A stretch of 64,000 nucleotides of DNA. Source: Bacteroidales bacterium. Lineage in GTDB: Bacteria; Bacteroidota; Bacteroidia; Bacteroidales; UBA4181. The stretch is from contig JAFWVY010000023.1 in NCBI GenBank assembly GCA_017523725.1, forward strand, positions 1-64,000, in the 5' to 3' direction. Within the stretch, counting starts at the first letter, position 1; every line of letters begins with the position of its first letter. The notes under the pieces were generated by a model. The model made no database searches. It had not been told where the DNA came from and was given only the letters and a program-made list of their open reading frames with translations. This document shows, in pieces, positions 29,144 through 50,351 of the stretch. Both the position numbers and the translations under genes were made by a program.

Positions 29144-29160
29144 CTTTTTTTGCACGTATC

Positions 29161-30909
29161 TCAGCAGCTGATGAATTCGAACTCAAAAGTGGCCACCGAG
29201 GCGGACCGGATATTTGCCATTTTTTGTAACTGACTGATCAGTACGGGCATATCTTCGCGACCATCCACGACATTCTTGTCCAGCGAGAGGGTGACACGTT
29301 CCGTCAGATGCTTCCGCTCAAGTTCGGTCCGGACCGTCATGTCCTTGAGGGTATCGCGCCGGAATCCGGCCTGGGTGAAGAACCGGATGCAGAACTGCTT
29401 GAGATCGGCTTTCGTGACGATGCGGTCGTTGGTCTGCATATAGTAGCGGGCCAGCATCTTTTTTTCTTCCGGATCTGTCACCTCGTCCTTCCCGCCGGTC
29501 GGCTTCATCAGCAACCGTGTGGTCTTCTTGTCCAGGTCGCGCGGCGGATTGACGGCCGAAAGCAGGTCTATGTCATTGGCGTAAGCGCCGTCCGTGAAGA
29601 GTGCGGAAAGCCGGATCGGGTCGGCGGATGTCGTGGCGGCGTTTTGTTTCAGAATGGCGTAGATGCCCGATTGCGGTACATTCTCGTCTTTAATGATCGT
29701 CAGAATGTCCTTCAGCACGACATCAAGCCGGCGGATCTTGTCGGCGTTCTGCATCTGGTGAATCTTCTGGAACGCATAGAAGTCGGATTCGTAGCGTTTG
29801 GCCAGTTCGCTGGCCAGCCGGATCAGCTCGTCAGGGTTGAACCTTTCGCAACCGAAGCGGCGGACGTAGAATTTGTCTGCATCCTCGGGAGAAAGTTCTT
29901 CATCGGACACCAGGTTCATGAAGAAATCGTGGTGGTTGTTTTCGGGGGTCTTGCCTGTCAGCAGCCGCAGCCCGCTGTTTTCCTCGGCTTCGAAATTGAC
30001 TTCGTTGGCCAGTTTGACAATGGGCTCCCTGGGAGAGAGCGTAAAATCTTTCCGGATCACGTTGACGGCCGGGAAACAATTGATTATCAAACTTCTTGCA
30101 TCAAAATTGAAGGGCTGGACCATGTCGGAGAACTCGAAGACGAGGTTGATGGCGTCCGACGTGATGGGCCGGTCGAAACTGCCGTCCACCATGAAATAAT
30201 TGATGTTGCGCGAGGTCCACAGGTCAAACCATTGCGTCCGATATCCGAAGAGCAGGCTGTTGTTCAGGAAGGCGTTGGCGTTCGAGAACCAGGAACAGAG
30301 CGGGAACCTTTCGAATTCCCACGGCTTGATGAGGTTCACCTTCTCGTTGCTCCAGTACACGTTCAGGTCGCTGAACCGTACGCCGTCAATGAAGAAACCG
30401 AGGTTGCCGAGGTCGGCTTTCGGATCGGTGAACCGCAGGTTGACGTTCCATTTGTCGGATGCAATCTTGGTGACACTGTTGACGGTCGCCCCGATGATTT
30501 TGGTGTCGAACATCGGTTGGAACGGGAACAGTTCCTTGAGACGCAGGGACTCCCGCTTGACGAGGAAGGTCGATTCTTCGTTGACGTAGCACGGGGACGG
30601 GTCGCCGGCCTGCTTGCCGGTGGCGATGATGGTGAAGGACGGCACCGCCTGGGTCAGGTGATACGGCATGACCAGCTGCTCCAACGTGTCCATCATGCCG
30701 TTCTCGAGCTGCGCCATATCGCGTTTCACGCCGTTTATCTGGTAAACGAACGCCGAAATCAGGATGCCGAGCAGCGGATCCTTCTCGATACCATAGAACG
30801 GCGCGTTCGGGTTGTTGCTGTCCCATTTGCCCTCGCTTTTCCAGAGTTGCAGCACTTTTTCCATCAGGGAATTCACCTGCCGCTGAATATCGTATTCTTC
30901 GTTTGTCAT
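29161..30909 (-). CDS. tssF: T6SS baseplate protein TssF
   Basis: 582 residues, the size of TssF. The N-terminus (residues 30-90: DPLLGILISAFVYQINGV, then LEQLVMPYHLTQAVPSF) follows the TssF pattern in which a helical start precedes a P-x(5)-P-S segment. With TssG and TssK it forms the baseplate wedge on which the tail tube and sheath assemble, on the cytoplasmic face of the inner membrane. It is the last gene of the T6SS run, 12 bp after tssE. Sequence is diverged from proteobacterial TssF. Confidence 0.8.
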   Translation of the reverse strand: MTNEEYDIQRQVNSLMEKVLQLWKSEGKWDSNNPNAPFYGIEKDPLLGILISAFVYQINGVKRDMAQLENGMMDTLEQLVMPYHLTQAVPSFTIIATGKQAGDPSPCYVNEESTFLVKRESLRLKELFPFQPMFDTKIIGATVNSVTKIASDKWNVNLRFTDPKADLGNLGFFIDGVRFSDLNVYWSNEKVNLIKPWEFERFPLCSWFSNANAFLNNSLLFGYRTQWFDLWTSRNINYFMVDGSFDRPITSDAINLVFEFSDMVQPFNFDARSLIINCFPAVNVIRKDFTLSPREPIVKLANEVNFEAEENSGLRLLTGKTPENNHHDFFMNLVSDEELSPEDADKFYVRRFGCERFNPDELIRLASELAKRYESDFYAFQKIHQMQNADKIRRLDVVLKDILTIIKDENVPQSGIYAILKQNAATTSADPIRLSALFTDGAYANDIDLLSAVNPPRDLDKKTTRLLMKPTGGKDEVTDPEEKKMLARYYMQTNDRIVTKADLKQFCIRFFTQAGFRRDTLKDMTVRTELERKHLTERVTLSLDKNVVDGREDMPVLISQLQKMANIRSASVATFEFEFISC

Positions 30910-30921
30910 AATCGTTTGTTT

Positions 30922-31401
30922 TTACCAGACCACGGTGTTGAATTCGTAATAATAGAACGCATGGGTCTCATCGTTGATCTTGCCTGAAACCGTAATGTGG
31001 ATGATTTTTCCGCGCGACTGGAAATCCATGGAGACCGATACGTCCTTCAGCCGTTTCTCATAACGCTCGATGGTGTGCTTGAGTTCGGTGGCGAAAGTGT
31101 CGCTGGTCCGGCTGTCCCCGATGATCTTCTTGTCGTACAGCGGATTCTTGATGTCGAAAAGCTGCGTGTTTTCTTTGGGATTCAGTTTGTTCTGCACAGT
31201 TTCGAAGAATTTGGCCCGTTCGACGCTGAAGCTTTCGAAGCGGAAGTCCTCCAAGGCGAACCCGAAGTCGGGATCGGCAATGCAGCAGAACTTGTTGGAC
31301 GCGATGAGCATGTCGAGAAAGGCATCGATAGACTGTTTGGTCTTGTCGTTGCCGGATTCGACCATCGGGTAGGATATCCTGAACGGATGCTTGATGAACA
31401 T
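30922..31401 (-). CDS. tssE: T6SS baseplate protein TssE (gp25-like)
   Basis: 159 residues, the usual TssE size. The C-terminal half has the gp25 pattern IERYEKRLKDVSVSMDFQSR, where a helix with R-x-E-x-R-L leads into strands. TssE joins the baseplate to the first sheath ring. It sits between tssK (18 bp upstream) and tssF. No signal peptide. Confidence 0.8.
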   Translation of the reverse strand: MFIKHPFRISYPMVESGNDKTKQSIDAFLDMLIASNKFCCIADPDFGFALEDFRFESFSVERAKFFETVQNKLNPKENTQLFDIKNPLYDKKIIGDSRTSDTFATELKHTIERYEKRLKDVSVSMDFQSRGKIIHITVSGKINDETHAFYYYEFNTVVW

Positions 31402-31419: not shown

Positions 31420-32286
31420 TTAGATGGTCGGACAGAATATCTCTTCGACCGGTTCCGGTTCGGGCACTTCGGCCGGCTTGGGTTTCAGGTCGTCCATGGC
31501 TGTAAGCGTTTCGCCGATGAATCCGATGAATTGACGCAGGAAAGGCTCGATGTCAAGCAGGTTGTATTCCGGCAGGTCGGCACTCCGTTCGAAAACAGGA
31601 TAGCTGAGCACGGTGGCGAGTTTGCTGCAGCGGGAGGCCAGCATGCGCGGTGAATCGTCCGCCCGGAAGTCCAGCAACTGTCCGGCGATGAGTCGCACCA
31701 GCAGCTTGTCCTCCAGTTTCTGGAAACTTTCGTGCTCCAGGATCTTCTGGATCTGCTGCTTGATCTGGTCCACTTTTTCCATCAGGATGAGGGAACTCCG
31801 CGCCGACACGACCGGCAGGATGAAGTCTTCGTCAACGGCACGTCCGTTCGCGTTTTTCAACTTCAGCAGCGGTACGGCGTCGTGAATTTCGTCCAGCGTC
31901 CGGCAGTCGAACACATATTCGTATGCGATGTGCGGGATGCCGCCGCGGTCGTACGATCTGGTCTTGTCACCGATGGAAACCGTGAGATACAGCACGTCAT
32001 CCTTCCGGTCCGGGATGGGCACGGACAGATTCTCCTCGGACTGCGCAATGACAACCTGGCCGGAGGGCAGCATCAGGGTGCATTCGATTTCCCTGATCTG
32101 GATATCCTTGTTCGAAAGGTCATAATTCAGGACGAACTTGCTTTGCGGAACGACCCCGAACACCTGGGTCGCCAGAATCTTGCGAAGTATCATGCGGTGT
32201 TCGCCCAGGTCGTTCTCCATGTCAATGAACGTCTGCGGCGTGATTTCCATGCCGGCATGCCAGTCGATTCTTATGTCTGTATTCAT
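31420..32286 (-). CDS. tssK: T6SS baseplate protein TssK, short form
   Basis: 288 residues. The start IRIDWHAGMEITPQTFIDME matches the TssK opening W-x-E/A-GM-x(2)-P/TPQ-H/T-F. TssK adapts the baseplate to the membrane complex. Proteobacterial TssK is about 440 residues with a phage receptor-binding-like C-terminal domain. Here the last residues (PKPAEVPEPEPVEE) are a low-complexity tail and that C-terminal domain seems missing, so contact with the envelope complex must differ. It lies 4 bp after tssG. Confidence 0.75.
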   Translation of the reverse strand: MNTDIRIDWHAGMEITPQTFIDMENDLGEHRMILRKILATQVFGVVPQSKFVLNYDLSNKDIQIREIECTLMLPSGQVVIAQSEENLSVPIPDRKDDVLYLTVSIGDKTRSYDRGGIPHIAYEYVFDCRTLDEIHDAVPLLKLKNANGRAVDEDFILPVVSARSSLILMEKVDQIKQQIQKILEHESFQKLEDKLLVRLIAGQLLDFRADDSPRMLASRCSKLATVLSYPVFERSADLPEYNLLDIEPFLRQFIGFIGETLTAMDDLKPKPAEVPEPEPVEEIFCPTI

Positions 32287-32290: not shown

Positions 32291-33064
32291 TTACAGTTGT
32301 GTATTATAATCTAGTACAAGGGGTGCGGTATCGGAGAGGATGAAGGCCTGCTGGAAGTCCTTGATGGCAAAGGTCATCGAGATGGGAACCGGCAGGAACC
32401 ATTCTTGCAGGAACTCAAAGAAGGGCCCGAGCAGGGCCATGAATTCCTGGTGCGTTTTCTGGAGGAGGCCCCGTTTGTTGATGACGAAACGGATGTCAAC
32501 GGGCGAAGTATGCTCCCATGTCACCGGACAGCGGAACACGTGCGAGAGCAGGTCGGAAATAAGCCGGATGTCGCCCCGGATCTTGGTCACATGCAGCAGC
32601 ATGGGCGCGAACCGCCGGATATACACATTGGGTTCGTTCTCCAGGTCGAAGTCGAAGAATTTCTTCAGCATGTTGCAGACGCTCTGCCGGACGGCTTCCG
32701 AGGCCGTCTTCTCAATCTGCAGGGACAGGTTGAAGATGGCCGTGTCGAAGGGCATGAAATAGCTCTTGATGGTCTGCTCCTCTTCCATGATTTCATTGAC
32801 GCGCGCCGTGAACTCGCGGCCGCTCTTCTGCCGCAGCTCCTGTTCATCGAAGAACAGTTTTTCGGGCAGCACCCGGTAGATGCCGTTGCGCGAGGTGAGA
32901 ATCTGCCTGGCGCCCGGATCGCAGCGTTGCAGGTCGTTCACGTAGTTTCTGCGGAAGAAACTGTCGTGATGGACCGTCCATTCGTCCACGTCCGGATAGT
33001 ACTGCGCAAGCAGGGTTTCCGCCCGCAGGTCTTCCATGTCCACATATTTGTCAACAACAATCAT
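32291..33064 (-). CDS. tssG: T6SS baseplate protein TssG
   Basis: 257 residues. Overall layout and position (between the other baseplate genes) fit TssG: an all-alpha/beta protein with HVTKIRGDIRLISDLLSHVF in the middle and LVLDYNTQL at the C-terminus. Two TssG copies clamp one TssF in the wedge. It begins 2 bp after the E1-like gene. Sequence similarity is weak by eye, so gene order carries much of the call. Confidence 0.65.
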   Translation of the reverse strand: MIVVDKYVDMEDLRAETLLAQYYPDVDEWTVHHDSFFRRNYVNDLQRCDPGARQILTSRNGIYRVLPEKLFFDEQELRQKSGREFTARVNEIMEEEQTIKSYFMPFDTAIFNLSLQIEKTASEAVRQSVCNMLKKFFDFDLENEPNVYIRRFAPMLLHVTKIRGDIRLISDLLSHVFRCPVTWEHTSPVDIRFVINKRGLLQKTHQEFMALLGPFFEFLQEWFLPVPISMTFAIKDFQQAFILSDTAPLVLDYNTQL

Positions 33065-33066: not shown

Positions 33067-34284
33067 TCAGACCTTTTCTTGGTTAATAAAAGGATAGCGT
33101 CCGGCATCACCCGTCAACTCGATATGGTACAGACCATGTTCGGTCGTCACCTCGATCACATCGTAGTAAGGAATTCCTATTTCTCTTAAAGTCAGACGTT
33201 TGTATGGGAAATTCCGGTCGATGTTCTCATAGGTGTTCTGGTTGAGTTCGGTGCGCGGCCTGGTGTAAAGATCGTAATTTTGGTCGATATAATCCGGAAT
33301 TTTCGATTCCGGCAGCATCGGCGTGAACTTCTGGTTGTCGTTCTTGGAGACAATGATGTCCACAAACTTGTCGTTCCGGAGGTTGATTTCCACTTCGTTG
33401 ACATTCAGGCAACGCCGAATCTGCGAGAAGGCGTCGGAGATGCGTGTGTCGGCACTGAGGCTGGACATCTGGAAAACATCGTTCCAGCATTCGTGCGAGG
33501 GACAATCTTCGTCGAAAGAGCGGCTGTCGTATACGGCGATGCGGTTGTGCATGCCCTCGTAATGCAGCCATTTACCGGTCAGCGGCGTGAAAAGGCCGGA
33601 GTCCACTTCTTTCTTGTGAAGCAGTTTCATGGCTTCCTGCACCTCTATGGCGCCGATGATCGAGGCGATGACCGGTGTGGTCGGCGTGCGGCCGGCCTGT
33701 TCGTTGCGCTGGGCCACGCCCGCACAGGACAATTGCTGCGAGATATGTTGTTTGGCGTGTTCAGTCAGGCTGCATTCATAGCAGTTTTCGTTCTGCCTGA
33801 AGATGCGTACGTTGCCCGTCAGATTCTCGATGCCGCCGTCGATCCACGGCACGTTGGCCCGCATGCACAGCCGGTTCAGCTGCAGCCGTGCCAGCCGGCT
33901 GTCCAGACAACCGATGACGACATCCATTTTGCGGTAGAGCCCCAGTCCGACTTCGGAGGCCAGATGGCCGCAAACGCACTGTACGTTGATTTGCGGGTTG
34001 ATCTCCCGGATTCTTTCTGCAGCGACTTCGGCTTTGTACAGACCTTTGTCTGCATCTTCCGGGCGGAACAGGATGGAACGCGTGAGATTGGAGAACTCAA
34101 TGGTATCGAAATCGACGATATAGATGTTGCCAACCCCGAACAAGGCCAGATTCTTCAGTGCTTCGTTGCCAAGTGCACCGGCACCGACCACCATGACACG
34201 GGCCTGCCGTACCGTCTCGTTCTTGTACCACGAGAGCAGGTCGAAGACTTCTTTGCCCCAGGTTTGCAGTGTCCCGTTTTCCAT
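33067..34284 (-). CDS. E1-like ubiquitin-activating enzyme (ThiF fold, UBA3-like)
   Basis: 405 residues. The ThiF adenylation domain has GAGALG (34-39), IVDFDTIEFSNLTRS (Asp58, Asp60, Arg69) and Lys84. C168-x2-C171 and C261-x4-C266 are candidate zinc ligands. Cys187 in QQLSCAGVA falls 16 residues after Cys171, where human UBA3 has its catalytic Cys 14 residues after the same pair. TTPVIASIIGAIEVQEAMKL (202-221) is the UBA2/UBA3-type helix. About 100 C-terminal residues look like a beta-grasp ubiquitin-fold domain (KRLTLREIGIPYYDVIEVT), which in eukaryotic E1s binds the E2. Expected role: adenylate and thioester-link the ubiquitin-like protein at 42027-42341. Cytoplasmic; set between tssG and the outer-membrane protein gene. 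Confidence 0.85.
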   Translation of the reverse strand: MENGTLQTWGKEVFDLLSWYKNETVRQARVMVVGAGALGNEALKNLALFGVGNIYIVDFDTIEFSNLTRSILFRPEDADKGLYKAEVAAERIREINPQINVQCVCGHLASEVGLGLYRKMDVVIGCLDSRLARLQLNRLCMRANVPWIDGGIENLTGNVRIFRQNENCYECSLTEHAKQHISQQLSCAGVAQRNEQAGRTPTTPVIASIIGAIEVQEAMKLLHKKEVDSGLFTPLTGKWLHYEGMHNRIAVYDSRSFDEDCPSHECWNDVFQMSSLSADTRISDAFSQIRRCLNVNEVEINLRNDKFVDIIVSKNDNQKFTPMLPESKIPDYIDQNYDLYTRPRTELNQNTYENIDRNFPYKRLTLREIGIPYYDVIEVTTEHGLYHIELTGDAGRYPFINQEKV

Positions 34285-34289: not shown

Positions 34290-35456
34290 TTATTTAAGTG
34301 TATAGACCAGGCCGATTTCAATGGTCGGCAGGAAAGTCCTGAGACCGTCCCAGGCACTGTCCGCCGTGTAACCTGTCGCATCTTCGACCGGTTTATGGTC
34401 GATCATCGGTGTTACGGCATATTCACACCGGATGCCGGCTTTGAACAGCAGACTCGATGCGTAGCGCACCGGCCGCAGGCAGCCGGCGGGGATGTAGGTG
34501 CCGAATGCGGCGTGTGCCCACAGGGCGAAAGAACGTGCTTCGGGTTCCGCTGCAACGGTCTCCATATTGACTGGCAGGACGACCCTTCCGGGGGTCTCCT
34601 CGCCATGGGGTGAGACAATCCGATAGTCGGAACTGAGGCAGATCGACGGTGTGACGCCGAATTTGCCGTAAACCGTGATTCGGCTGGACGAAGGCTGGCC
34701 GAAGCAGCATTGTACGGGGAAGTCCAGATATTTGACGGTCATTTTTTCCTTGACACGGTTCAGTGTCTGGTTGTTGTCAAACCAGAAGAACGTGTTTTCG
34801 TCCGGTGGCGCCAGTACGGATATGGCCCGCCAGCCGACGCCGGCTTCCATGGAGAAGGGGAAGTTCAGGCCCCACCGGCCGGTGCCGAAATACAGCGCAG
34901 CCTGTGTGAACCATCTGAAATCCTTGACGGTCATGTCTTCGTTGTCCCGGTCGTAGAGTACCGGTCCGGCGGCCGCGGTGACACCGATGACCGGCGTCCT
35001 GGCGGGCAGGCCGATGAAGAAAGACATGTCCCCGTTCCTGCCGCCCGTCACAGCCTCCTGCGGCCTGTCCTGCCGGGCGGCGCGGTCTAACTGCAGGTTG
35101 TGAAGCGTCATGTTCAGGGCTGTGATGGTATTGTTCAGCGAATCAATCTGGATTTCCTTCTGCATGTACTTTTCGCTCAGCGCTTCGGCTTCGGCCGAGG
35201 CCTGCGTCAGCGTGTCGATCAGCCGGTCCCGCCTGGCGACAGCTGCTTCGAGCGTTTTAATCTGCGCCTGGAGTTCGTCGACGACCTGGTATTTGACATT
35301 TTCCATGTAGTCTTCGACCGTCCCCTTGTAATAGTCCACTTTCAGTTCCTTCCCGTCTTTCGTCCTGCCGTGGATGCTTTGCATCTGCGACTGGGCGCAG
35401 ACCTCGACGGCCATGCAGCACAGGCTCAGCGTAATCAGAAAACAGACGTGTTTCAT
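34290..35456 (-). CDS. Outer-membrane beta-barrel-like protein with coiled coil (T6SS-linked)
   Basis: 388 residues. A signal peptide ends near EVCAQS. Residues ~30-130 are a coiled coil (VDELQAQIKTLEAAVARRD and following heptads), then an alternating barrel-like region to the C-terminus, which ends in IEIGLVYTLK, a typical barrel last strand. It may span the outer membrane, with the coiled coil reaching into the periplasm, and so stand in for TssJ-type envelope anchoring. This role is inferred from the operon position only; no named family is recognised. Gene follows the RING/FHA gene by 20 bp. Confidence 0.6.
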   Translation of the reverse strand: MKHVCFLITLSLCCMAVEVCAQSQMQSIHGRTKDGKELKVDYYKGTVEDYMENVKYQVVDELQAQIKTLEAAVARRDRLIDTLTQASAEAEALSEKYMQKEIQIDSLNNTITALNMTLHNLQLDRAARQDRPQEAVTGGRNGDMSFFIGLPARTPVIGVTAAAGPVLYDRDNEDMTVKDFRWFTQAALYFGTGRWGLNFPFSMEAGVGWRAISVLAPPDENTFFWFDNNQTLNRVKEKMTVKYLDFPVQCCFGQPSSSRITVYGKFGVTPSICLSSDYRIVSPHGEETPGRVVLPVNMETVAAEPEARSFALWAHAAFGTYIPAGCLRPVRYASSLLFKAGIRCEYAVTPMIDHKPVEDATGYTADSAWDGLRTFLPTIEIGLVYTLK

Positions 35457-37793: not shown

Positions 37794-39428
37794 TCAATTT
37801 CTTTTTCTCCTTAACCATTCTTTCATTTGATTCATTGTCACGACCGCCTTCACGCCGTCTTCGGGAGGAATGCAGATATCCAACTCTTCATCCGTCCGGT
37901 ACACGACGTAGAACAATTTGCCGCTGAGCTGCGAAGCATAGGCAGTCGCAATGGCGTCGGTTCCAGCCGTGGTATGGACGACCAGGCATCCGACGGTGTC
38001 ACCGTTGCTGTATGGCAGGCAGTTCTCTACGAAAAGCGTCCGGGAAATCTTGTGTCCGCTGAAATAGCCGATGACGCCTTCAGATGAGTTGTATATGAGG
38101 TCGTTGATTTGATTGATTGCTTTTCCGGAAAGACTGATGCCGCACAAGTTCCCGCTTTCGACGGGAATCTTCATGTAGTGCGGATTTTCGGCGCTCTGTT
38201 CATCGTCTGCGGTGACAGGCTGCCGGTTTCGTTCGCGTTCGGCCTGCCGCGCCTGTTTGTACATTTCCTCGAAGGAGAACCACTTCCTGACATCGTCCTT
38301 GTTGTTCATCCGTCCGTCCGTCTGCGGCGTGAAACAACCCAGCTGGAGCTCCATGCTGTTGGTGTCGATGACCAGGGCGATCAGCCGGTTGGCAAATTCG
38401 GTATAGACCAGTTGGCGCTGGACGATCAGATCCTGGTTCGACAGGAAGAGGCCCAGTCCGGGATGGGAGTGGATCCAGCCGGTAAGCACATAGTCCCTGC
38501 CGGTTTTCGAGGCCAGGCTGTTGATGAGCGAACCCATGCTGACGCCGATTTTCTTTCCGAAGTTGAGGCTGTATTCGCCGAAATCGGCGTCGTCGCCGGG
38601 CTCTACCATGTATTCCACGCTGATGTCAAAGCGGTCCTGGCTTCCTTCGGCGTAATCCCAGCAACCGACCAGGTAACATCCCGTTTCGTTGGTCCGTTCG
38701 CCGTTCTCCAGCGAACGGTTGAAAAACGAATAGACTTTCTTGACAAGGTCGATGCTGAAATACATCCGGTTGATGCCCGTGTTTTCAAAGACTTCGTTCA
38801 AATCGAACGTCAGGTATTCTTCCGGATGGGACAATACATGCTGCAGACCTTTGGCGTAATGTTCCGACGTGTCTTCGATGACGGTGAAAACATCGTCATC
38901 CGTCTGTTTTTTCCGGAACCAGAATCTCTGTCCGGTTTTCTTTTTCCGTACCATGAGCACCAATATGGCAATGGCGCAAAGCAACAATGCAATGATGATG
39001 TTCTGCATAGTGACGAAACCCTTTCCTTCCTTGCCGGGCGTTCCGGCAGCGGCCGGGTCTTCTTCGGGTGATGTGCTATTGTCCGTCCCGGCCGGCTTGA
39101 GCCGGACGGCGATGCAAAGCTGGTGCTCCGCGTCGTTGAACGTGCAGTCGAGGAAGATTTCGCCGTTGCGGTCGGACAGCCGTTCGATGGGGAAGGTATA
39201 GGTGCCCGGCATGAAGAGGCACGTGCTGTCCTGGTTCCATGCAAAAGCTTCGCAGACCGGGGCGCATCCGCTGATGGCGGCTCTTGAGAATCCCAGCCTT
39301 CCGGACGGTACGCTGATGGTCAACGTCCGGCCGTCATAGGTCGCAGTCGGCCCCTCGGCGCGGCATATGGCCGGCAGCAGCAGAGAGACTGCCAGAACAA
39401 CCGATATGATGCATGAGCGGTGTTTCAT
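37794..39428 (-). CDS. Membrane-anchored JAB/JAMM isopeptidase
   Basis: 544 residues. A signal peptide (1-24), a periplasmic domain of about 115 residues and a single helix (142-160) followed by RKKK place the rest in the cytoplasm. The JAMM metalloprotease motif is complete: Glu248 in NETG, His320, His322, Ser330 and Asp333 in HSHPGLGLFLSNQD (H-x-H-x7-S-x2-D). A second, motif-less MPN-like region follows (~410-530, with GVIGYFSGHKI). JAMM enzymes cleave isopeptide bonds or mature ubiquitin-like proteins; here it would remove or process the Ubl. It ends 1 bp before the RING/FHA gene. Confidence 0.88.
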   Translation of the reverse strand: MKHRSCIISVVLAVSLLLPAICRAEGPTATYDGRTLTISVPSGRLGFSRAAISGCAPVCEAFAWNQDSTCLFMPGTYTFPIERLSDRNGEIFLDCTFNDAEHQLCIAVRLKPAGTDNSTSPEEDPAAAGTPGKEGKGFVTMQNIIIALLLCAIAILVLMVRKKKTGQRFWFRKKQTDDDVFTVIEDTSEHYAKGLQHVLSHPEEYLTFDLNEVFENTGINRMYFSIDLVKKVYSFFNRSLENGERTNETGCYLVGCWDYAEGSQDRFDISVEYMVEPGDDADFGEYSLNFGKKIGVSMGSLINSLASKTGRDYVLTGWIHSHPGLGLFLSNQDLIVQRQLVYTEFANRLIALVIDTNSMELQLGCFTPQTDGRMNNKDDVRKWFSFEEMYKQARQAERERNRQPVTADDEQSAENPHYMKIPVESGNLCGISLSGKAINQINDLIYNSSEGVIGYFSGHKISRTLFVENCLPYSNGDTVGCLVVHTTAGTDAIATAYASQLSGKLFYVVYRTDEELDICIPPEDGVKAVVTMNQMKEWLRRKRN

Positions 39429-39440: not shown

Positions 39441-40196
39441 TTAGATGGAAGGCAGTTCCTCCTGGGGTTGCTGGGTTGTCTGGGCCTTTTTGAGCTGTTT
39501 CTTGATTTTCAGTTTCTGCATGACCATGTTGAACGCGATGAACACCATGGCGGCTGCCGTGATAATCTTGAAAATCATGTCGCTGAGCGATTTGCTGATG
39601 ATGTCGGTGGTCGAGATGCGTGTGTAGGTCTCCTTGACGGCATTCCATGTGGCGGTCAGGGCCTCGTTGTCATCGAAGATCTGCCGGTTGCTGTTGTATT
39701 CCACAGTTGCTTCGCTGTTGAAATATTCTTCGGCTTCTTTCTTGACGAGCTTCAGCGAATCGATGCGCTTGTTGGCGACATAGCGCTCGGCCTGTTGCTG
39801 CATGACCTGCAGCCGCGCCAGATAGGTGTCGAACTTTCCGGAGAGCTTGTCGATAACCTCCTGCTGTGCCCTGGCGGCCTTCAGCTCCTCAATGTGTTTC
39901 CCGATCTGCTGGTACAGGTCGGTGTAGTTCACATAGATTTGATGGAGGTTCTTCTGGTAGCGGATGATCTCGCTGTAGTCGCTGTAACACGATTCCACCA
40001 GCTTGATGTGCGCCTTGTAGGTATTTTCGTACCGGTCTGCGTCTTCGGCTGTGACAATCTTGTTGTTCAGTTCGACAAGCTCTTTGTAATATCCTTCCAG
40101 TTCGGCTTTGACGTACTCATCCTGGGCCCGGCTGACGGCAGGCAGGGCTGTAAGCAGTACGGCAAGAAGACAGGCGGTACCCAGTATTTTTTTCAT
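39441..40196 (-). CDS. Periplasmic coiled-coil protein with C-terminal membrane helix (T6SS-linked)
   Basis: 251 residues. A signal peptide ends near VSRAQ. Long helical, coiled-coil-prone periplasmic part (~25-200), then one membrane helix (~208-226, MIFKIITAAAMVFIAFNMV) and a short basic cytoplasmic tail with KKQLKKAQ. Type I topology suits a strut between inner membrane and periplasm. The layout recalls Bacteroidetes TssO/TssP membrane-complex proteins, but I cannot confirm homology. Its neighbours are the 397-residue exported protein and the JAMM gene, 12 bp away on each side. Confidence 0.6.
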   Translation of the reverse strand: MKKILGTACLLAVLLTALPAVSRAQDEYVKAELEGYYKELVELNNKIVTAEDADRYENTYKAHIKLVESCYSDYSEIIRYQKNLHQIYVNYTDLYQQIGKHIEELKAARAQQEVIDKLSGKFDTYLARLQVMQQQAERYVANKRIDSLKLVKKEAEEYFNSEATVEYNSNRQIFDDNEALTATWNAVKETYTRISTTDIISKSLSDMIFKIITAAAMVFIAFNMVMQKLKIKKQLKKAQTTQQPQEELPSI

Positions 40197-40208: not shown

Positions 40209-41402
40209 TTATTTGATGAGTTTCTTGGCGGTTTCGTAATTGTTGAGAATCTTGGAATCCAACCGGCTGGCGCACGATTGCGACAATCCTCTGATGGTGG
40301 CGTCGGTGGCGCTGACGAGGCTGTCGAAGGCCGCTTTCTGCGAGGCCTTGGTGGCTTCGTCCCGGGCGGAGATCCAGTCGTTGGCCAGGCCGTTGAGCCG
40401 GCTCGTGGCTGCTCTGATCTCGGAGTTCAACGCGGCGGGATCGCACGGTGCCGGAGCTTCGGCGGCGGCGCCACCGCCGGCCGAGGTGTCGTAGGCCTTG
40501 ATCCGGTCCATGCAGCTCATCAGGTCGTCATAGGCATACTGCAGTTCTTCGCAGCCGCTGTTGTCGAAACGGCGGGCGTCGATCTTGGAGAATTGCTCAA
40601 CCAGCAGTTCCTTGCATTTTGCCAGCAGTGCGCGGCCCGATTTCTGGAGTTCTTCCATCTTGGCTTCACCGGCGGCGAAAACCGACAGATATTCCTTGGC
40701 AATGACCAGCAGCTGCTCGTTCTCCTTGCAGGTGTCGATGGTCAGATTGATCTCAATCTCAATGTCGGAGCCGATGTAATTCAATACTTTGCCTTTAATC
40801 ATCGGCATGGGGTTCTTGAGGATGACATACACCTTCTTGGCCCCTTCCTCCAGCTTGAAAGATATTTCCATCTCCGATTTCCCGTCCAGCGGAAGAATCT
40901 GACGGTCGATGGGTTTGGACAGTTTCATCGGCGAGGTCAGTTCGCATCCGTCGTAATTGCAGCCGCGGGCGTCTGCAAACGTCTCGACGGAGGAGTCGTA
41001 CAGGTTGAGGAAACTGATCTGTTCGTTGAACGTCGCGGTGGATTTGAAGGCACCGCCCCGTTTCTTGAAATAATCCTTGAAATCTTCAATTTTGATTTTG
41101 TTCTGCGGCAGCCACACGAATTCGTTGGCCCCGGCCGCGGCTTTCGCCGGCTGTGCTTTCTTGCCTTTCCCGGCCGGTTCTTCCGGTTTCGGGGCGCTCA
41201 GTTTGAACGTCATGACGCGGTCGGTCTTGCTGAACTGTGCCGTGAGTTCCAGGTCGACCGAAGGGATGCGGTCGTTGTAGCCCTTGACGGTGATGGTCTG
41301 CGTAACAGGCTGGTCCGGTTCGAGGTTGAAGGTGTAAGCGGATTCCGCGAATGCCATGAAGGGCATCGCGGCCAATACTGCGGTTGCTAATTTCTTGATC
41401 AT
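40209..41402 (-). CDS. Exported protein of unknown function (T6SS-linked)
   Basis: 397 residues with a signal peptide ending at MAFAES and no other membrane segment, so probably periplasmic. The N-terminal half is beta-rich; a low-complexity patch (GKGKKAQPAKAAAGA) sits near residue 80. The C-terminal ~170 residues are helical with several Cys and a Gly/Ala/Pro-rich insert. No family recognised. Lying 8 bp after the E2-like gene and 12 bp before the coiled-coil membrane protein, it probably belongs to the envelope part of the secretion machine. Confidence 0.6.
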   Translation of the reverse strand: MIKKLATAVLAAMPFMAFAESAYTFNLEPDQPVTQTITVKGYNDRIPSVDLELTAQFSKTDRVMTFKLSAPKPEEPAGKGKKAQPAKAAAGANEFVWLPQNKIKIEDFKDYFKKRGGAFKSTATFNEQISFLNLYDSSVETFADARGCNYDGCELTSPMKLSKPIDRQILPLDGKSEMEISFKLEEGAKKVYVILKNPMPMIKGKVLNYIGSDIEIEINLTIDTCKENEQLLVIAKEYLSVFAAGEAKMEELQKSGRALLAKCKELLVEQFSKIDARRFDNSGCEELQYAYDDLMSCMDRIKAYDTSAGGGAAAEAPAPCDPAALNSEIRAATSRLNGLANDWISARDEATKASQKAAFDSLVSATDATIRGLSQSCASRLDSKILNNYETAKKLIK

Positions 41403-41410: not shown

Positions 41411-42007
41411 TTAGTTTAGATTGTTTCTGAGTTCTTTAATCCATCCGTTGGGCTCGGCCTGCTCCAGCACCCATTCGGCCACTTTCAGGTCTTCCGGGAA
41501 TGGCGGTGTATTCTGTGCGTGGTATTTCTCGTATTTCAGATACAGCATCACGCGGTCGACATACCAGGCCAGGTCGGTGAACGTGCCGCAGGCCGGCGTG
41601 TTCAGACACACATGGCCGGCAAAGTCGCCGTAATACCGGATGTTCGGATGCCACGGATGCGGAATCTCCCGTCCGTCCCCGTCGGTCGTCAGAAACCGGA
41701 ATTCCAGTTTGCTGTCGATGGCGGGATAGTTGTTCGGAATTTGGATGACCATGCGGAATTCGTCTCCGAAAACCGGCCGGTTCCATCCGTCTCCGTCTGC
41801 AGGAAGGACGCCGCAGAACGAGTGCACCTTGAAAACGACCTCGTACATGGTGGGGAGATGGTCGGCATTGCGGCGCCTGACGGTATAGGCAATGTCCGGT
41901 TCGTCCCTGAACCTTGCGTCCATGGCGGTCCACTCATACATCAGCCTGCGGTTCTTGCCCGTGAAGCGGATGTTTCTATACCGGTCTATTTCCTGGTGCG
42001 GATCCAT
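41411..42007 (-). CDS. E2-like ubiquitin-conjugating enzyme
   Basis: 198 residues, UBC fold. The N-terminal helix (RRLMYEWTAMDARF) is followed by strands, including FRMVIQIPNNYPAIDSKLEF, which parallels the F-x-I-x-F-P-x2-YP-x(3)-P core of E2s. Then comes His120-Pro121-Asn122, the HPN motif that builds the oxyanion hole, and Cys134 in GHVCLNT, corresponding to the catalytic Cys of ICLD in canonical E2s. The HPN-to-Cys distance is four residues longer than usual. It would carry the Ubl, encoded 19 bp upstream, as a thioester. Cytoplasmic; start at 42007. Confidence 0.88.
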   Translation of the reverse strand: MDPHQEIDRYRNIRFTGKNRRLMYEWTAMDARFRDEPDIAYTVRRRNADHLPTMYEVVFKVHSFCGVLPADGDGWNRPVFGDEFRMVIQIPNNYPAIDSKLEFRFLTTDGDGREIPHPWHPNIRYYGDFAGHVCLNTPACGTFTDLAWYVDRVMLYLKYEKYHAQNTPPFPEDLKVAEWVLEQAEPNGWIKELRNNLN

Positions 42008-42361: not shown

Positions 42362-42943
42362 CTATTTCAAATCTTTCAATATTTCGAATTCCTCGCCCGA
42401 CAACTCGCCGAGATCGTGGCAGCACATGGCAATCAAAGCGGTCTTGACGGCTTCCGAGGTCCGGTCCTGCCGTGCATCCGCCCGACGGCCCCACGCGTCT
42501 GGCCTTCCGTTTCCATTCTCGGTGCCGGCTTTCTGTTCGTTCAGCGCGTCCGCGACGGACATGTCGTTCTGGAACCCGAGCGAGGCCATGATTTTCAGTT
42601 TCATCCGGCTGTCGAAGATGCTGGGACTTGCCTGCCGTCCGGCGATGAGGTTGTCCAGCCAATGCCAGGACTCCGTCTGCCGTAACCGGGTCATCACCTG
42701 CCGCTGCAGTTCCCGGTAAAAACTTTCGTCGAATTGTTCCGGACGGTCGTCGTGAGCGTTGATACGCGACATGTAACGGGTCTGCAATACAGCATCGTAG
42801 GCCCTTGAGATAACTTTCTGTATGTTGATACGGAAGTTGACCTGGGACCATGTGGGAATGCCGAAATCCTCCTTCAGCCGCATCGGTGAGACGTGCGGAA
42901 GATACTCGAAAAAGCGGTCTTTTGTATTGATGACTCTTCTCAT
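42362..42943 (-). CDS. Unknown T6SS-linked cytoplasmic protein
   Basis: 193 residues, no signal peptide or membrane segment. The N-terminal two thirds look all-helical, with FGIPTWSQVNFRINIQKVIS and a Trp pair (SWHWLDNL); a polar low-complexity stretch (TENGNGRPDAWGRRADARQD) precedes a C-terminal helix pair with two adjacent Cys. No family recognised. It lies 20 bp before the Ubl gene and 7 bp after the 169-residue gene. It could be a target or cofactor of the conjugation system, a TssA-like adaptor or an immunity protein; nothing in the sequence decides. Confidence 0.55.
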   Translation of the reverse strand: MRRVINTKDRFFEYLPHVSPMRLKEDFGIPTWSQVNFRINIQKVISRAYDAVLQTRYMSRINAHDDRPEQFDESFYRELQRQVMTRLRQTESWHWLDNLIAGRQASPSIFDSRMKLKIMASLGFQNDMSVADALNEQKAGTENGNGRPDAWGRRADARQDRTSEAVKTALIAMCCHDLGELSGEEFEILKDLK

Positions 42944-42950
42944 GCCGGTC

Positions 42951-43460
42951 TTATTTCTCCATCATTATTACTTCTTTTTCACGTTTCAGCAGGACGCCTG
43001 TCGTCGCATCAAAATGCACGGTTTCGAGGATCTTCGGAGCGGGGCAAAGCGTGAAACGCCATTCGGCGATGCCTTCGCGCGTTTTGCCGCGGCCGATGGA
43101 TGTCACTTCCTGCAGGGAAATCTTTTCTTCTCTCAATCGCTGTGCCATCTGGTCCCATGACACCGGAAAATCTGCATCTGTGTCATGTTCTGCGACAATT
43201 CCGCCGAATTCGTCATATTCTTTCCATACACCGATGCGGGTGCCTCCTTTTTTCAGGAAATGTCCCTCTTCCTTCAAGGTCAGCGTGCTGGGATAATACG
43301 AACGTCCCCGGCAGACCATGTCCGGGAAGGCTGGAATGTTGTAGGTCACGTATTCTTCATCGTATTCCAGCATCTTAACGGTTTCCCCGTCCTCCCTGCG
43401 CAGCACGGCGGCACCGTTGTCGTAATGTTCCTCGAAGAAATATAAGTCGAACTTTTCCAT
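42951..43460 (-). CDS. Unknown protein after the metallopeptidase effector
   Basis: 169 residues, no signal peptide. Mixed alpha/beta, acidic, with beta-rich text such as VLLKREKEVIMMEK at the end and GIVAEHDTDADFPVSWDQM in the middle. No family recognised. It begins 12 bp after the metallopeptidase stop. That position suits an immunity protein or effector chaperone, but an effector acting in the periplasm would normally need an exported immunity protein, which this is not. Confidence 0.55.
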   Translation of the reverse strand: MEKFDLYFFEEHYDNGAAVLRREDGETVKMLEYDEEYVTYNIPAFPDMVCRGRSYYPSTLTLKEEGHFLKKGGTRIGVWKEYDEFGGIVAEHDTDADFPVSWDQMAQRLREEKISLQEVTSIGRGKTREGIAEWRFTLCPAPKILETVHFDATTGVLLKREKEVIMMEK

Positions 43461-43472
43461 GGTACTGCCGGG

Positions 43473-45860
43473 TTAATACATTTTATTCCAGATGGCCTGC
43501 GCCTTGGTACGCATGATATTCCACTGGGCCGGTCCCAGCGAATAGATACGGCTGGAGTAGTCCATCGCGTTGGTGGTGGTTTTATATTTGAATGTGAATG
43601 GACTTTCGTTATGGAAACTGTGACGCAGATTCAACTGGTGCAACAGTTCATGGCCGAGAACCTCCCTCGTACTCCAGTCCTTGCTGCTGGTTTCGATGGA
43701 TTTTTTGAACAATATAATGGTAGGCGGATCGGCTAAACTCGCACCGGAAGCCAGCTTGCATAATTCGTCCACGATGAATACGCGGATGAACGATTTGTTG
43801 ATATTCAGAGGTTCGAGATGTTTTTCCAGCACTTCGTTCAGTGTCGTTTCGTTTTCGTCATCTAAATATAGTCTGCCGATGTTGTTATTCTCATCGAGAA
43901 ACGGCTGGATGAGCGACCTCGGGATGTTCATGGATATTTTCTGTTCCTTTGCGATGATACCGGCCTGTGACAGCAACTGGTAATGCCGGTCTCTTTCCGG
44001 CGACCAACCCTCCTGCATGGAGGTGTTATATGCATCTTCGCTGTCATCCACGCCGTTGCCGAGGCCGCTGGTGACACTGACCAGCAGGATGTGAACCGGG
44101 ATGGGGGGCCACACACGGAGTTCAAGCAGTCCGACCCAGGTGCCCTTTTCGTTTTTGGCGACAATGTATTCCGTTGTGTTGCACTGGCCTGTGACCCGGA
44201 TGTTTAGACGGTTCTTCTTGGGCGAGGTGACTTTTTCCGGATCAACCTTTATGTTCTCCGAGGTGGGGGTGAAGGTGATCTTGTCGAAATCACCGTGGTA
44301 GAGCATCTGGACATCCGCCTCGTCGTAGATGGTCGTGAAGAAGCGTTTTCGCTCGTTCTTGCTGCCGAATTGCGCCATGCCCAGTACCGGGATGGGATAG
44401 CCCATGAACTTGCCTCTGCCGCTGTCGTACACCCGGATGCGTCGGTTGACGAGATAGTCCTCACAGTACAGATGCAGCACTCCGTCATCGCACGGTTTGT
44501 CGACTTTCATCACCTTGTCCTCATAGATGCCGTAAGTGGGCAGTTCTTTTTCGCCGGCTTCCGTAACGGTCAGCGGTTCTTCTACAATCTTTCCGGCCGG
44601 CGTCATTTCTATGAAGAATCCGGCGGCCCGTTTGTTCAGGATGGGACTGTTCAAGAGTTCGTAGGCGTTGATGTCCTTGTTCTCGAGGAAATCATCGTAG
44701 ATGCCCCATTTGTGTTTCTTGTTCTGGTCCTTGATGACAGAGTATCCGTAATATTCGGATGCATACCTTTCGGCCTGCAACTTTTCGTTCTTGATTTCGC
44801 TGTTGAACGTGCTGTCTCCCCACTGACGGGCTTTGGCCGATTCCCATTTGCCGGTCTTCTGGTTGACACCGAGCAGGAAGTACGGGCGGAATTTTTTACT
44901 CAGGATGCTGAGATATTCGTTCTTGTCTTTCTCCTTCGTGGCGCGGTCGTATTTGTCGAGTGTCATGTCGAACTGCAGCTTCTCGATTTCCTTGCGGAAT
45001 TCATAAACTTTCAGTTTCTCGAGTTTCCCGTTGTAGTAGCTGAAAGTAAATCGTTGACCATACAGGTCGGCTGAGACGATCTTCTTCGTGGCGTATTCTA
45101 CGGAGCCCTTAGTATAGGTGTTGTCCAGACCATGGATGGTGGCTGGCGAGGCCAGTTTCTTCTCGTCCATGAGACCGATTTTGTCCCAGAAAGCATTCAC
45201 CATACCTCTTGTCAAAACGTACTTCTTCCGGACATCTTCGTTGATTTCGGCTTTCTGGGTGAAAGACTCTCCGGCCGACCATTCCCATTGTCTCCTGGGC
45301 GCTTCGACCTCACTCAGTACATAGACTTCTTCTTCTTTTGACAGGGTTATTTCGCGCAGGGTCGTATTCTCATACTTGATGACGACTTTCATTGAGATGC
45401 CCCGGACGTCCCTTTTGAAAGTCACCGTCTTGGTCTTCAGAGATACATCCACATCGTAATGCAGCGCCTTGTATGCCCCACCATCCTTGACCACGGGGAC
45501 CTTCACGCCATTCCGCAGGATGTAGTATCGGCAGAAATAACAGGGATCCTGCTCGATGTCCTTGACGAAATTTTTATCGAAATCATCGGCTTCAATGCCG
45601 TTTTCCTTGCCGTCCCAGTTGCAGTACATTTTGACCGATGGACTGGCGCACATGTATTTGCCGATGTTGGTGTCGAAGTTGTCGGCGTTCTCGTTGTCTT
45701 CGCGCTTGTCGTCGTAGTCGCCCATCATGCGGAACCAGTCGAAGCCGTACTCCCCTTTCCAGTCCGGTATGGGACGGAACTGGACGAGGCAGAACTTGCC
45801 GTTCTCCTGCTGCTCGTTCTGTTGCTGCTGCTTGCGTTGGTCGGATCCTATTCCTGCCAT
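43473..45860 (-). CDS. Metzincin-type metallopeptidase, probable T6SS effector
   Basis: 795 residues. The C-terminal zinc motif HELLHQLNLRH (737-747) fits the metzincin HExxHxxxxxH pattern with Asn in place of the usual Gly, and NAMDYS (764-769) gives the Met-turn. No signal peptide. The N-terminus, after a Gln-rich start, has FRPIPDWKGEYGFDWFRMMGD (28-48), which may be a delivery domain for loading on the spike. The gene follows vgrG and the PAAR-like gene with small gaps, the usual place for cargo. Expected action: proteolysis in the target cell; substrate unknown. Confidence 0.7.
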   Translation of the reverse strand: MAGIGSDQRKQQQQNEQQENGKFCLVQFRPIPDWKGEYGFDWFRMMGDYDDKREDNENADNFDTNIGKYMCASPSVKMYCNWDGKENGIEADDFDKNFVKDIEQDPCYFCRYYILRNGVKVPVVKDGGAYKALHYDVDVSLKTKTVTFKRDVRGISMKVVIKYENTTLREITLSKEEEVYVLSEVEAPRRQWEWSAGESFTQKAEINEDVRKKYVLTRGMVNAFWDKIGLMDEKKLASPATIHGLDNTYTKGSVEYATKKIVSADLYGQRFTFSYYNGKLEKLKVYEFRKEIEKLQFDMTLDKYDRATKEKDKNEYLSILSKKFRPYFLLGVNQKTGKWESAKARQWGDSTFNSEIKNEKLQAERYASEYYGYSVIKDQNKKHKWGIYDDFLENKDINAYELLNSPILNKRAAGFFIEMTPAGKIVEEPLTVTEAGEKELPTYGIYEDKVMKVDKPCDDGVLHLYCEDYLVNRRIRVYDSGRGKFMGYPIPVLGMAQFGSKNERKRFFTTIYDEADVQMLYHGDFDKITFTPTSENIKVDPEKVTSPKKNRLNIRVTGQCNTTEYIVAKNEKGTWVGLLELRVWPPIPVHILLVSVTSGLGNGVDDSEDAYNTSMQEGWSPERDRHYQLLSQAGIIAKEQKISMNIPRSLIQPFLDENNNIGRLYLDDENETTLNEVLEKHLEPLNINKSFIRVFIVDELCKLASGASLADPPTIILFKKSIETSSKDWSTREVLGHELLHQLNLRHSFHNESPFTFKYKTTTNAMDYSSRIYSLGPAQWNIMRTKAQAIWNKMY

Positions 45861-45863
45861 GAC

Positions 45864-46985
45864 TTAACAGTTAAAACTGCAAATTTCTGTCTCTTCGCAA
45901 CCGATGGCCTCACAGTCGTTGGTCAAGGCCTCGTAAACTGCCTGCGACAGCTTGTCGGCATCGTACCGGAGACAGTCTCCGGGATTGGTGATATAGAGGT
46001 ATTCGATGACAATGGCCCGGTCGCCGAGCGCATTGTCATTGCTCACAAACGGATGCGATATCGAACGTCTTACGCCGTTGCACTTGAGTCCGGTCGCGGC
46101 GGCAATCCGGCGGCTGATGCGGCAGGCGGCGCGCAGTGTTTCTTTCTGCTCCGGATCCAGCCGGAAGGGATAGCTGCTGCCGCGGTTGAAAATCTTACGG
46201 TCGTCCTTGCCGTCCACGCTGCGGACGATGGTGTGCACGCCCGTGCTGTAGCCGTCCGCCGCACGGTAGGATGTGCAGGTTTCACCGGTGGCCTCCATGG
46301 TGCACATCTCTCCCTGATGGGGGCAGTCCGGGGCGGTGCAACTCTTGATGTCGAGGAAACGGCACGGTGCCGCGCTGATTTCGTGTGCGATGAAATAGAG
46401 TGCGTCCTGATTTTCCGGCGCGCCGTATTTCAGCCGGAGGTCGCGGCACGGCTTGCCGGGCTGTCGGCACATGACATAAGCCCTTTCGTGGTGCGGACAG
46501 TCGCCACGTTCGCCGTTCCCGGCCTCGCAGGTGAGCGGTGCCTTGTTCAGCTGGGTGAATTTTCCGCAGATATGGTTTTCGTCCCGGAAGGAGCATGCAT
46601 ATTTTTTATCTCGCAATGCGGGTGTGCCGTGTCCGGCGGACAGGTCACGGTTGAGGGCACAGGTCTCGTCGCACCGTCCGATGTCCCCGACCGCAGCTTG
46701 TCTCGCAAGCTGGCCGGAAACCTTCTGACATGCAGGCATCTTGAGCGGAAAAACCTGTATGCGGGCATTCTCATCGTTGCATTGTGCGATGAACCGGGCT
46801 CCGATTTTCTTGGCGAGGTCTTCCTGTCTCAACCGGATGTCCGGGTTTGCACCGGTGACGGTGACGCTCCTCTCCGGACAAAAGAGAATATCGCACGCCA
46901 TGCACCCGGCGAGGGAAGTCTCCGGATAGCTCTCGGCGCTGACGACCGTGATGGCAGGCTGATATTTCTTGTGTTCCCAGTCCAT
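45864..46985 (-). CDS. Cysteine-rich protein with amidase_3-like motifs, probable T6SS effector
   Basis: 373 residues with about 25 Cys. Motifs in the order of N-acetylmuramoyl-L-alanine amidases (amidase_3) can be made out: His119 in SAGHG, Glu135 sixteen residues later, His201 in ALYFIAHEISAAP (compare DLFISIHANA), TGVHTIV (compare GVETYY), and Glu328 in AIVIEYLYITNP (compare VLVELGFITNP). Two CPH-x(5-8)-C-x(6-8)-C repeats (163-180, 221-237) lie around the third motif. No signal peptide. Placed between the PAAR-like tip and the metallopeptidase, it is a good candidate for a peptidoglycan-cleaving effector. Homology is by eye only. Confidence 0.5.
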   Translation of the reverse strand: MDWEHKKYQPAITVVSAESYPETSLAGCMACDILFCPERSVTVTGANPDIRLRQEDLAKKIGARFIAQCNDENARIQVFPLKMPACQKVSGQLARQAAVGDIGRCDETCALNRDLSAGHGTPALRDKKYACSFRDENHICGKFTQLNKAPLTCEAGNGERGDCPHHERAYVMCRQPGKPCRDLRLKYGAPENQDALYFIAHEISAAPCRFLDIKSCTAPDCPHQGEMCTMEATGETCTSYRAADGYSTGVHTIVRSVDGKDDRKIFNRGSSYPFRLDPEQKETLRAACRISRRIAAATGLKCNGVRRSISHPFVSNDNALGDRAIVIEYLYITNPGDCLRYDADKLSQAVYEALTNDCEAIGCEETEICSFNC

Positions 46986-46986: not shown

Positions 46987-47418
46987 TTACGAAACGATTT
47001 CTATGATGCCGCCAAAGGCGCAGTTCAGTTTGCAGGTATTGAGCAGCGCCGGCTGGTTCTCGATAAGCAGGTCGGTTTTGGGCGGAGCCCATGGTGCGGG
47101 GATGACCGGGGTGCAAGGCATCGGTGTCAGGGTGCCCAGATTGGCCGCCGTGGCCGCTGCCACCTGCGGGTTGGCCATCGACTGGCACATGCCGAACGGC
47201 GGGATGTTAACCATGGGTTCCTTGTCCATGATATTGCCCATCGGCACGCCGCCTATCTGGACGGTACGCGAGGGCAGCACCACCAGCGAGGAGGGCGCCA
47301 TGCCGAAACTGCACTTCATGTTTACGCCGCTGCCTACGAATTTCTGGACAACGGGTGTGCGCGGTATGTCGGGGCCTTGCTCCAGCGCCTGCTTGATTTC
47401 GAGAAAGAAACTAGACAT
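46987..47418 (-). CDS. DUF4280 PAAR-like spike tip protein
   Basis: 143 residues. The family text is clear: VNIPPFGMCQSMANPQVAAA, then TPMPCTPVI, and ENQPALLNTCKLNCAFGGII at the end. DUF4280 proteins are PAAR-like and are thought to cap the VgrG spike and hold cargo. Four Cys could bind metal at the tip. It begins 5 bp after vgrG and is followed 1 bp later by the Cys-rich gene, which supports joint loading of cargo. Confidence 0.85.
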   Translation of the reverse strand: MSSFFLEIKQALEQGPDIPRTPVVQKFVGSGVNMKCSFGMAPSSLVVLPSRTVQIGGVPMGNIMDKEPMVNIPPFGMCQSMANPQVAAATAANLGTLTPMPCTPVIPAPWAPPKTDLLIENQPALLNTCKLNCAFGGIIEIVS

Positions 47419-49781: not shown

Positions 49782-50288
49782 TTAGAATTCTGTGTTTGCA
49801 CGTCTCCGGAGGGTTTCCAGATATGAATCCAGAGCAGCGGCGTCTTTCCGGAAGTCGGCACTGCTCGGCAGCAGTTGCAAGGCCAGCTTTGAGGCACCGT
49901 CGGCACAAGGCATGAACATGCCGGGCTGAATGGTGATGCGGGCACACATCTGGGAGGTGGTGGTGCTGTTGAAGTATTCCCTGATGTCGATGCAGTAGGC
50001 GTGCGAGAAGGAATAGACCTTCGATTCGGGGAACGGACTGCATCTCCACCGACTGCTTTCCGAGTCGAATACCGCAAAACCGTCGTGTGGCAGACACGAG
50101 GAGAGCCATTCATACATGGCCGGGATGCCACCGGGGGGCGTGACAATGTCGAAAATGAGCTGCGCTCCTTTCAACCGCGAGTTCGGACGTCCCAGCTCGT
50201 CTGTATCCACATACATTTCGTACTCGAATTCCAGAATCCGGTAGGTGTTGATTCCGTGAATGCTCAATTCTCCTGAAACTGCTGCCAT
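49782..50288 (-). CDS. tssD: Second Hcp-like tube protein
   Basis: 168 residues. It keeps the Hcp layout seen in the neighbouring Hcp: an N-terminal strand pair, CLPHDGFAVFDSESSRW where the other has a loop, and FSHAYCIDIREYFNSTTTSQ aligning with FTDAYCVDFVELWEDKMGHY. A C-terminal helical extension of about 40 residues is absent from the other Hcp. It may be a tube-end adaptor between Hcp and VgrG, a specialised cargo-carrying Hcp, or a sheath-tube initiator. The start at 50288 is the first ATG after the hairpin at 50302-50336. Confidence 0.7.
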   Translation of the reverse strand: MAAVSGELSIHGINTYRILEFEYEMYVDTDELGRPNSRLKGAQLIFDIVTPPGGIPAMYEWLSSCLPHDGFAVFDSESSRWRCSPFPESKVYSFSHAYCIDIREYFNSTTTSQMCARITIQPGMFMPCADGASKLALQLLPSSADFRKDAAALDSYLETLRRRANTEF

Positions 50289-50301
50289 GGTTTTTCGATT
50301 G

Positions 50302-50336: not shown

Positions 50337-50351
50337 TTCAGGATTGACAAA

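Follow-up and report, generated by a model that had tools for sequence, protein, structure and literature searches.

The JAMM gene at 37794-39428 is part of a one-strand Bacteroidota T6SS operon, in which it is accompanied by genes for an E1, an E2, a ubiquitin-like modifier (Ubl) and a membrane RING protein. The original prediction, which described the JAMM protein as a membrane-tethered isopeptidase, missed this setting, and the embedding in a T6SS operon changes the likely function of the JAMM/Ubl set. We consider it somewhat probable that the protein is an isopeptidase that reverses an envelope-anchored Ubl-conjugation switch for the T6SS, working like the PpkA-PppA-Fha pathway. The window analyzed is a stretch of 64,000 nucleotides from a Bacteroidales bacterium (JAFWVY010000023.1), and its relevant features are collected in Table 1.

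Table 1. Features of the T6SS operon and the Ubl cassette within the window, ordered by position.
Feature	Coordinates	Strand	Description or basis
TssF-like	29161..30909	(-)	Similarity to the TssF-like protein of G046, and synteny
TssE	30922..31401	(-)	gp25, E 8.9e-9
Baseplate protein, TssK-like	31420..32286	(-)	N-terminal pattern and synteny; no Pfam match
Baseplate protein, TssG-like	32291..33064	(-)	Synteny; no Pfam match
E1-like enzyme	33067..34284	(-)	One ThiF domain (4e-54), 405 aa
Outer-membrane-barrel-like protein (by eye)	34290..35456	(-)	Signal peptide, periplasmic coiled coil; homologues in L006, L008, L050
E3 candidate, 771 aa	35477..37792	(-)	Signal peptide, periplasmic VWA, TM, cytoplasmic RING, ~6 TM, C-terminal FHA-like domain (topology predicted)
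JAMM protein	37794..39428	(-)	Signal peptide ~1-25, short periplasmic head, TM 142-160, JAMM ~195-400, degenerate MPN ~415-540 (topology predicted)
Envelope protein	39441..40196	(-)	Signal peptide, helical periplasmic region, C-terminal TM, short basic tail; layout common to L048, L049
Envelope protein	40209..41402	(-)	Signal peptide, no TM, no family match
E2-like enzyme	41411..42007	(-)	HPN motif, Cys133; family profile matches E2 structures at 5e-11
Ubiquitin-like modifier, 104 aa	42027..42341	(-)	C-terminus ...SDPIAG, nothing after the invariant Gly
Variable cargo region	42362..46985	(-)	Cys-rich 45864-46985, zincin-like 43473-45860, small ORFs 42951-43460 and 42362-42943
DUF4280 PAAR-like tip protein	46987..47418	(-)	
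VgrG/TssI spike	47424..49769	(-)	
Two Hcp/TssD genes	49782..50744	(-)	
TssC sheath protein	50785..52161	(-)	E 3.5e-105
TssB sheath protein	52171..52623	(-)	Weak Pfam match, under cut-off
TssH/ClpV ATPase	52665..55202	(-)	

The JAMM protein is encoded by an intact ORF of 544 amino acids that fills 37794-39428(-) exactly. Its JAMM motif (EXnH-S-H-X7-S-XX-D; E248, H320, H322, S330 and D333) is complete, as had been predicted, and all five catalytic residues are invariant in 34/34 homologues, which were aligned from whole-genome sets and a scan of GTDB contigs. The Pfam JAB family matched above its cut-off (22.9 bits, E 7.7e-5), and the family profile matched Rpn11 with an E value of 4.9e-11. In the AlphaFold model, pLDDT is mostly 90-98 over residues 190-400 and the C-terminal region is fairly confident. 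An archaeal Rpn11 homologue is the nearest structure (residues 216-376; 141 residues superposed with Z 15.7 and an rmsd of 2.1), so that the window domain, as modelled, has the MPN fold of JAMM/MPN+ metalloproteases. Identification as a RadC-like nuclease or a toxin JAB was considered and is not favored, because E1, E2, Ubl and RING genes accompany the JAMM gene and the profile is Rpn11-like. We regard the protein as a putative membrane-anchored isopeptidase, with motif and fold as the grounds for the predicted activity.

The signal peptide has its hydrophobic stretch at residues 6-24, and the single transmembrane helix is followed by RKKK, with a difference of +6 in K+R between the 15 residues after the helix and the 15 before it. 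A membrane helix lies directly N-terminal of the JAMM domain in all 34 aligned homologues, and two of them show one more weakly hydrophobic stretch, at around residues 50-70. Because the helix always precedes the JAMM domain and its flank is positive-inside (more K/R after the helix than before) in 32/34 homologues, the catalytic domain is predicted to be cytoplasmic and anchored in the inner membrane. The periplasmic head of the window protein is short (~residues 25-140) and was modelled with low confidence. The arrangement proposed originally, a signal peptide, a periplasmic domain and one membrane helix tethering the JAMM domain at the inner membrane, agrees with this topology; a periplasmic JAMM domain, named beforehand as the outcome that would contradict it, does not.

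A second MPN-like region without the motif had also been proposed to follow the JAMM domain. An hhalign comparison of residues 400-544 (eight members) with the JAMM domain of this same family gave a match probability of 91.8% (E 7.4e-7); 20 column-shuffled JAMM alignments and four unrelated profiles (Ubl, E2, RING and E1) did not exceed 0.5%. A motif-less, MPN-related copy at residues ~415-540 is thus well supported; it rests on this profile comparison, the structure match list for the JAMM model spanning residues 204-405. The suggested parallel with active/inactive MPN pairs held for the window protein and not for the family as a whole. As in Rpn11/Rpn8 and CSN5/CSN6, an active JAMM sits beside a motif-less MPN, and Rpn11 homologues are the nearest in fold, but here both are in one membrane-tethered chain, and most family members have no second MPN. 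It is present only in Bacteroidales-type members; those from Saprospiria/Chitinophagales terminate shortly after the JAMM domain.

The sites expected of a conjugation pathway are present in the neighboring genes: ATP-site residues and Cys187 of the E1 are invariant in 20 homologues, the HPN motif and catalytic Cys133 of the E2 in 27, and the terminal glycine of the Ubl in 25. Some Ubl homologues carry 1-5 extra residues, which would need removal. The RING gene lies 1 bp downstream of the JAMM gene, as was first reported and as the coordinates confirm. The VWA and FHA domains of this E3 candidate were both matched by profiles, and the VWA also by fold (Z 18.5). RING zinc ligands (C-x2-C...C-x-H-x2-H-x2-C) are present in the window copy and its Bacteroidales-type relatives; the E3 proteins of Saprospiria/Chitinophagales have a DPxT U-box-like form instead of the zinc RING, and the RING pattern is gone. 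The usual Arg/His of the phosphothreonine site was not seen in the FHA-like domain of the window copy. The predicted out-to-in topology of the RING protein matches that of the JAMM protein, and the two genes adjoin; this fits the earlier idea that the tether would set the JAMM domain beside the membrane RING protein, in a putative JAMM-RING complex.

The operon runs on one strand from TssH through TssB, TssC, two Hcp genes, VgrG, the DUF4280 PAAR gene and the cargo region to the cassette, whose order is Ubl, E2, two envelope proteins, JAMM, RING protein, outer-membrane-barrel-like protein and E1; the TssG-, TssK-, TssE- and TssF-like genes follow. Intergenic gaps from TssF to TssH are 1-41 bp, and 2 bp separate the E1 from the TssG-like gene. 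The T6SSiii components TssB, TssC, TssD, TssE, TssH and TssI were all found in the window, TssB weakly, whereas TssG, TssK and TssF have no Pfam match and were identified by comparing gene order and sequence among loci. Kinase and phosphatase families gave no match among the scanned genes of the operon. The gene beyond TssF (27768-29186) looks by eye like a GNAT-type acyltransferase and not like a T6SS part, and has no Pfam match at 0.01.

The ubiquitin-like pathways so far described in bacteria are soluble and act mostly in phage defense, and the Bil and type II CBASS operons are not known to hold a RING or envelope proteins. An anti-phage Ubl system of Bil- or CBASS-like type could merely be sitting in a T6SS island, a reading that we judge very improbable. 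Bacterial E1-E2-Ubl-JAB operons of known function are defense systems, and PADLOC E1-E2 models match the window E1 (1.3e-16, partial), but the cassette is packed into the operon with the short gaps given above, gene order is conserved in several families, the periplasmic heads are constant, and no cyclase or CBASS effector is nearby. Bil systems have a two-domain Ubl, a two-domain E1 and an E2 with a CEHH motif (PMC11354881), whereas the cassette has a single Ubl of 104 amino acids, a 405-amino-acid E1 with one ThiF domain, an HPN-type E2 and no two-domain BilA. Bil and type II CBASS operons (PMC11354881, PMC10097602) resemble the window in combining a Ubl or Ubl-like target with E1, E2 and JAMM; they differ from it in the RING/U-box-like E3, the membrane-anchored JAMM and the T6SS context found here.

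Between the PAAR gene and the cassette, the zincin-like protein (GHELLHQLNLRH) and the Cys-rich protein without family matches are both probable T6SS cargo, and the two small ORFs may be immunity genes or adaptors. In two Portibacter species, a PAAR gene and very large toxin-like proteins (L040:173-8836 and L038:2156-7456; HELTHVVQQREG repeats, DUF4157-like by eye) immediately precede the cassette. The Ubl pathway might act on cargo instead of regulating the machine, by tagging, loading, silencing or disposing of effectors or by protecting the producer. The position of the Ubl and E2 genes straight after the variable effector region fits this, as does the Portibacter arrangement, but effector regions vary among loci while the cassette stays constant, and the E1 end of the cassette is joined to baseplate genes; we consider action on cargo improbable.

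The scan of GTDB contigs gave 148 confirmed matches, and the best 80 of 148 were kept. Among these best 80 are about 40 Bacteroidota cassette loci, the rest being distant JAMMs, for example in Asgard archaea. E1-E2-JAMM-RING cassettes, some complete and some partial, occur across Bacteroidota. A T6SS adjoins the cassette in about 12 loci, an eCIS-type sheath gene lies 10-48 kb away in six, and SrfB/SrfC-like genes (by eye) are beside it in two (G016 and L066). In a sample of 295 genomes from the order, JAMM was found in 4, TssC in 13 and both in 3 (hypergeometric p 2.6e-4). Cassettes with an adjoining T6SS come from the window genome, G046, G242 (Ubl and E2 beside TssC, JAMM on a separate short contig), L048, L049, L050, Neolewinella, Lewinella and other Saprospiria/Chitinophagales-type loci, and in the E1 tree the T6SS association falls into two clades with supported branches between them. 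The operon layout of the window is shared by G046, L048, L049 and L050 and also by Neolewinella xylanilytica DSM 29526, where TssH through TssK, a TssN homologue, an M23 peptidase, E1, Ubl, E2, an envelope protein, JAMM and E3 run in one direction.

An obligate tie of the cassette to the T6SS was rejected, since TssC is missing from 15/33 relatives' genomes. In around half of the genomes with a cassette, no T6SS was seen; some cassettes are near eCIS, though outside the eCIS operon, or beside SrfB/SrfC-like genes. Nine of the 14 TssC-less cassette genomes from the GTDB scan gave a phage-type sheath match, several under the Pfam cut-off, and 6/14 carry the eCIS-type sheath on the cassette contig at the distance given above. 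The sheath regions of G692, G707 and G717, when read, were eCIS cluster-like. Relatives sought on viral contigs by peptide patterns were not found. Clusters resembling eCIS were seen in Portibacter and other Saprospiria (L177, L181 and L183); in L177 and L183, two adjoining genes encode proteins with a signal peptide or several TM helices, which are possibly an envelope anchor.

TssN is nearly ubiquitous in T6SSiii; it comprises a five-helix bundle and an EccD-like ubiquitin-fold domain, with a proposed role in baseplate docking, and TssR has a VWA domain (PMC10781749). The window system is like T6SSiii with TssNQOPR (PMC10781749) in its TssC, Hcp families and baseplate genes and in having multi-TM proteins, VWA and ubiquitin-fold domains; unlike them, it has a separate, putatively conjugation-competent Ubl with E1, E2, RING and JAMM, and TssN and TssO are not detectable in the window genome. 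HMMs for TssN and TssO gave no match in seven Bacteroidales-type genomes (G000, G046, G242, G685, G687, G688 and G689), the TssO HMM having matched in 4/4 control genomes. TssR was likewise not found in the seven, in a search that matched just 1/4 controls, and TssN in the window genome may be too divergent for the HMM.

The cassette envelope proteins (the VWA/6TM protein, the JAMM protein, those starting at 39441 and 40209, and the outer-membrane-barrel-like protein) could instead constitute an alternative T6SS membrane complex that replaces TssNQOPR, with the Ubl chemistry serving assembly or being secondary. This would account for five signal-peptide proteins adjoining the TssG/TssK/TssE/TssF genes in genomes where TssN, TssO and TssR were not found, and the ubiquitin-fold, helical-bundle and VWA domains of TssN and TssR fit it as well. 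We nevertheless think it unlikely: the cassette and a TssN homologue (match weak yet over the cut-off) lie side by side in Lewinella-type loci, the cassette is likewise present close to free eCIS and in T6SS-less genomes, the TssR search performed poorly in controls, and the enzymes have kept active sites that a scaffold would not need. Strict exclusion between cassette and TssN, true of Bacteroidales-type loci, was rejected as a general rule, since Lewinella-type loci have retained a TssN homologue next to the cassette; replacement of the membrane complex by the cassette is thus not universal.

Control of the T6SS by reversible Ubl tagging is favored because the parts match PpkA-PppA-Fha function by function. 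PpkA joins a periplasmic VWA sensor to a cytoplasmic kinase (PMC3224232). Like that pathway (PMC3224232, PMC12607579), the cassette has an inner-membrane protein with a periplasmic VWA and a cytoplasmic catalytic part, an opposing enzyme and an FHA domain, all encoded in the T6SS cluster; the modification here would be a ubiquitin-like protein, with RING/E2/E1 and JAMM replacing the kinase and phosphatase, and the analogy is one of function and not of homology. As judged from family knowledge of the catalytic steps, the E1 would adenylate the terminal glycine of the Ubl and hand the Ubl on to the E2. Its transfer onto a cytoplasmic T6SS part would then be steered by the RING protein in the inner membrane. 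Candidate substrates are the baseplate proteins TssK, TssG and TssE, the sheath proteins, or the tail of a further envelope subunit. From its anchor next to the RING protein, the JAMM protein would strip the tag, and the periplasmic VWA and JAMM heads may couple envelope state or contact to assembly or firing of the apparatus.

Kinases within the order bear on the same comparison. The T6SSs of G247 and G258 (L034-L037) have neither TssN nor the cassette and carry Ser/Thr kinase and FHA genes, together with PP2C in G247. Neither G046 nor G688 gave a protein-kinase match at E 1e-8, and the window genome has two weak protein-kinase matches, elsewhere than in the T6SS operon. This kinase comparison is based on two genomes (G247 and G258), whose kinase/FHA/PP2C set resembles a TPP-like module.

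We counted these kinase patterns in favor of the Ubl switch, along with the one-strand operon, the T6SS association in two E1 clades, the intact E1, E2, Ubl glycine and JAMM sites, the co-occurrence of JAMM with TssC, the proximity of eCIS-type sheaths in 6/14 genomes and the missing TssN/TssO of Bacteroidales-type genomes. The T6SS-less cassette genomes, the TssN of Lewinella, the loss of FHA residues and the two weak kinase matches were counted against it. More tentatively, and with rather less confidence than for the window itself, Ubl conjugation and deconjugation through an inner-membrane E3/JAMM pair with periplasmic sensor heads might be a general control of contractile injection systems, both T6SS and cell-anchored eCIS. 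Such a cycle would take the role of threonine phosphorylation, and in some Bacteroidales it would also substitute for a portion of the T6SS membrane complex.

Literature searches combining T6SS or contractile injection with Ubl conjugation returned nothing relevant; a 2011 survey of RING neighborhoods was outside their coverage. That survey, by Burroughs, Iyer and Aravind, reportedly described prokaryotic RING-E1-E2-Ubl-JAB neighborhoods, some bacterial versions having TM helices. These share with the cassette a RING alongside E1, E2, Ubl and JAB; the survey is not known to draw a link to T6SS or eCIS, and it limits our claim to novelty. If the model is correct, an E1-E2-E3-Ubl-JAMM set fixed in the envelope within a T6SS operon would be a ubiquitin-type switch for a bacterial secretion machine, with a bacterial RING/U-box-like E3 that has a transmembrane sensor, and could explain what anchors or controls those Bacteroidota T6SSs that lack TssNQOPR. 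These data suggest that some bacteria may govern the T6SS by reversible protein tagging, and the model is testable in cultured isolates that have the full locus, such as N. xylanilytica DSM 29526.

A different Ubl arrangement was seen in G016, the TssC-less genome with a cassette beside SrfB/SrfC-like genes. Its L010 cluster encodes a second JAMM with an N-terminal Ubl-like region (4939-5793), a Ubl-like-TM protein (3181-3927) and a tandem-Ubl-like protein (5811-6884), and also holds SrfB/SrfC-like and subtilase genes.
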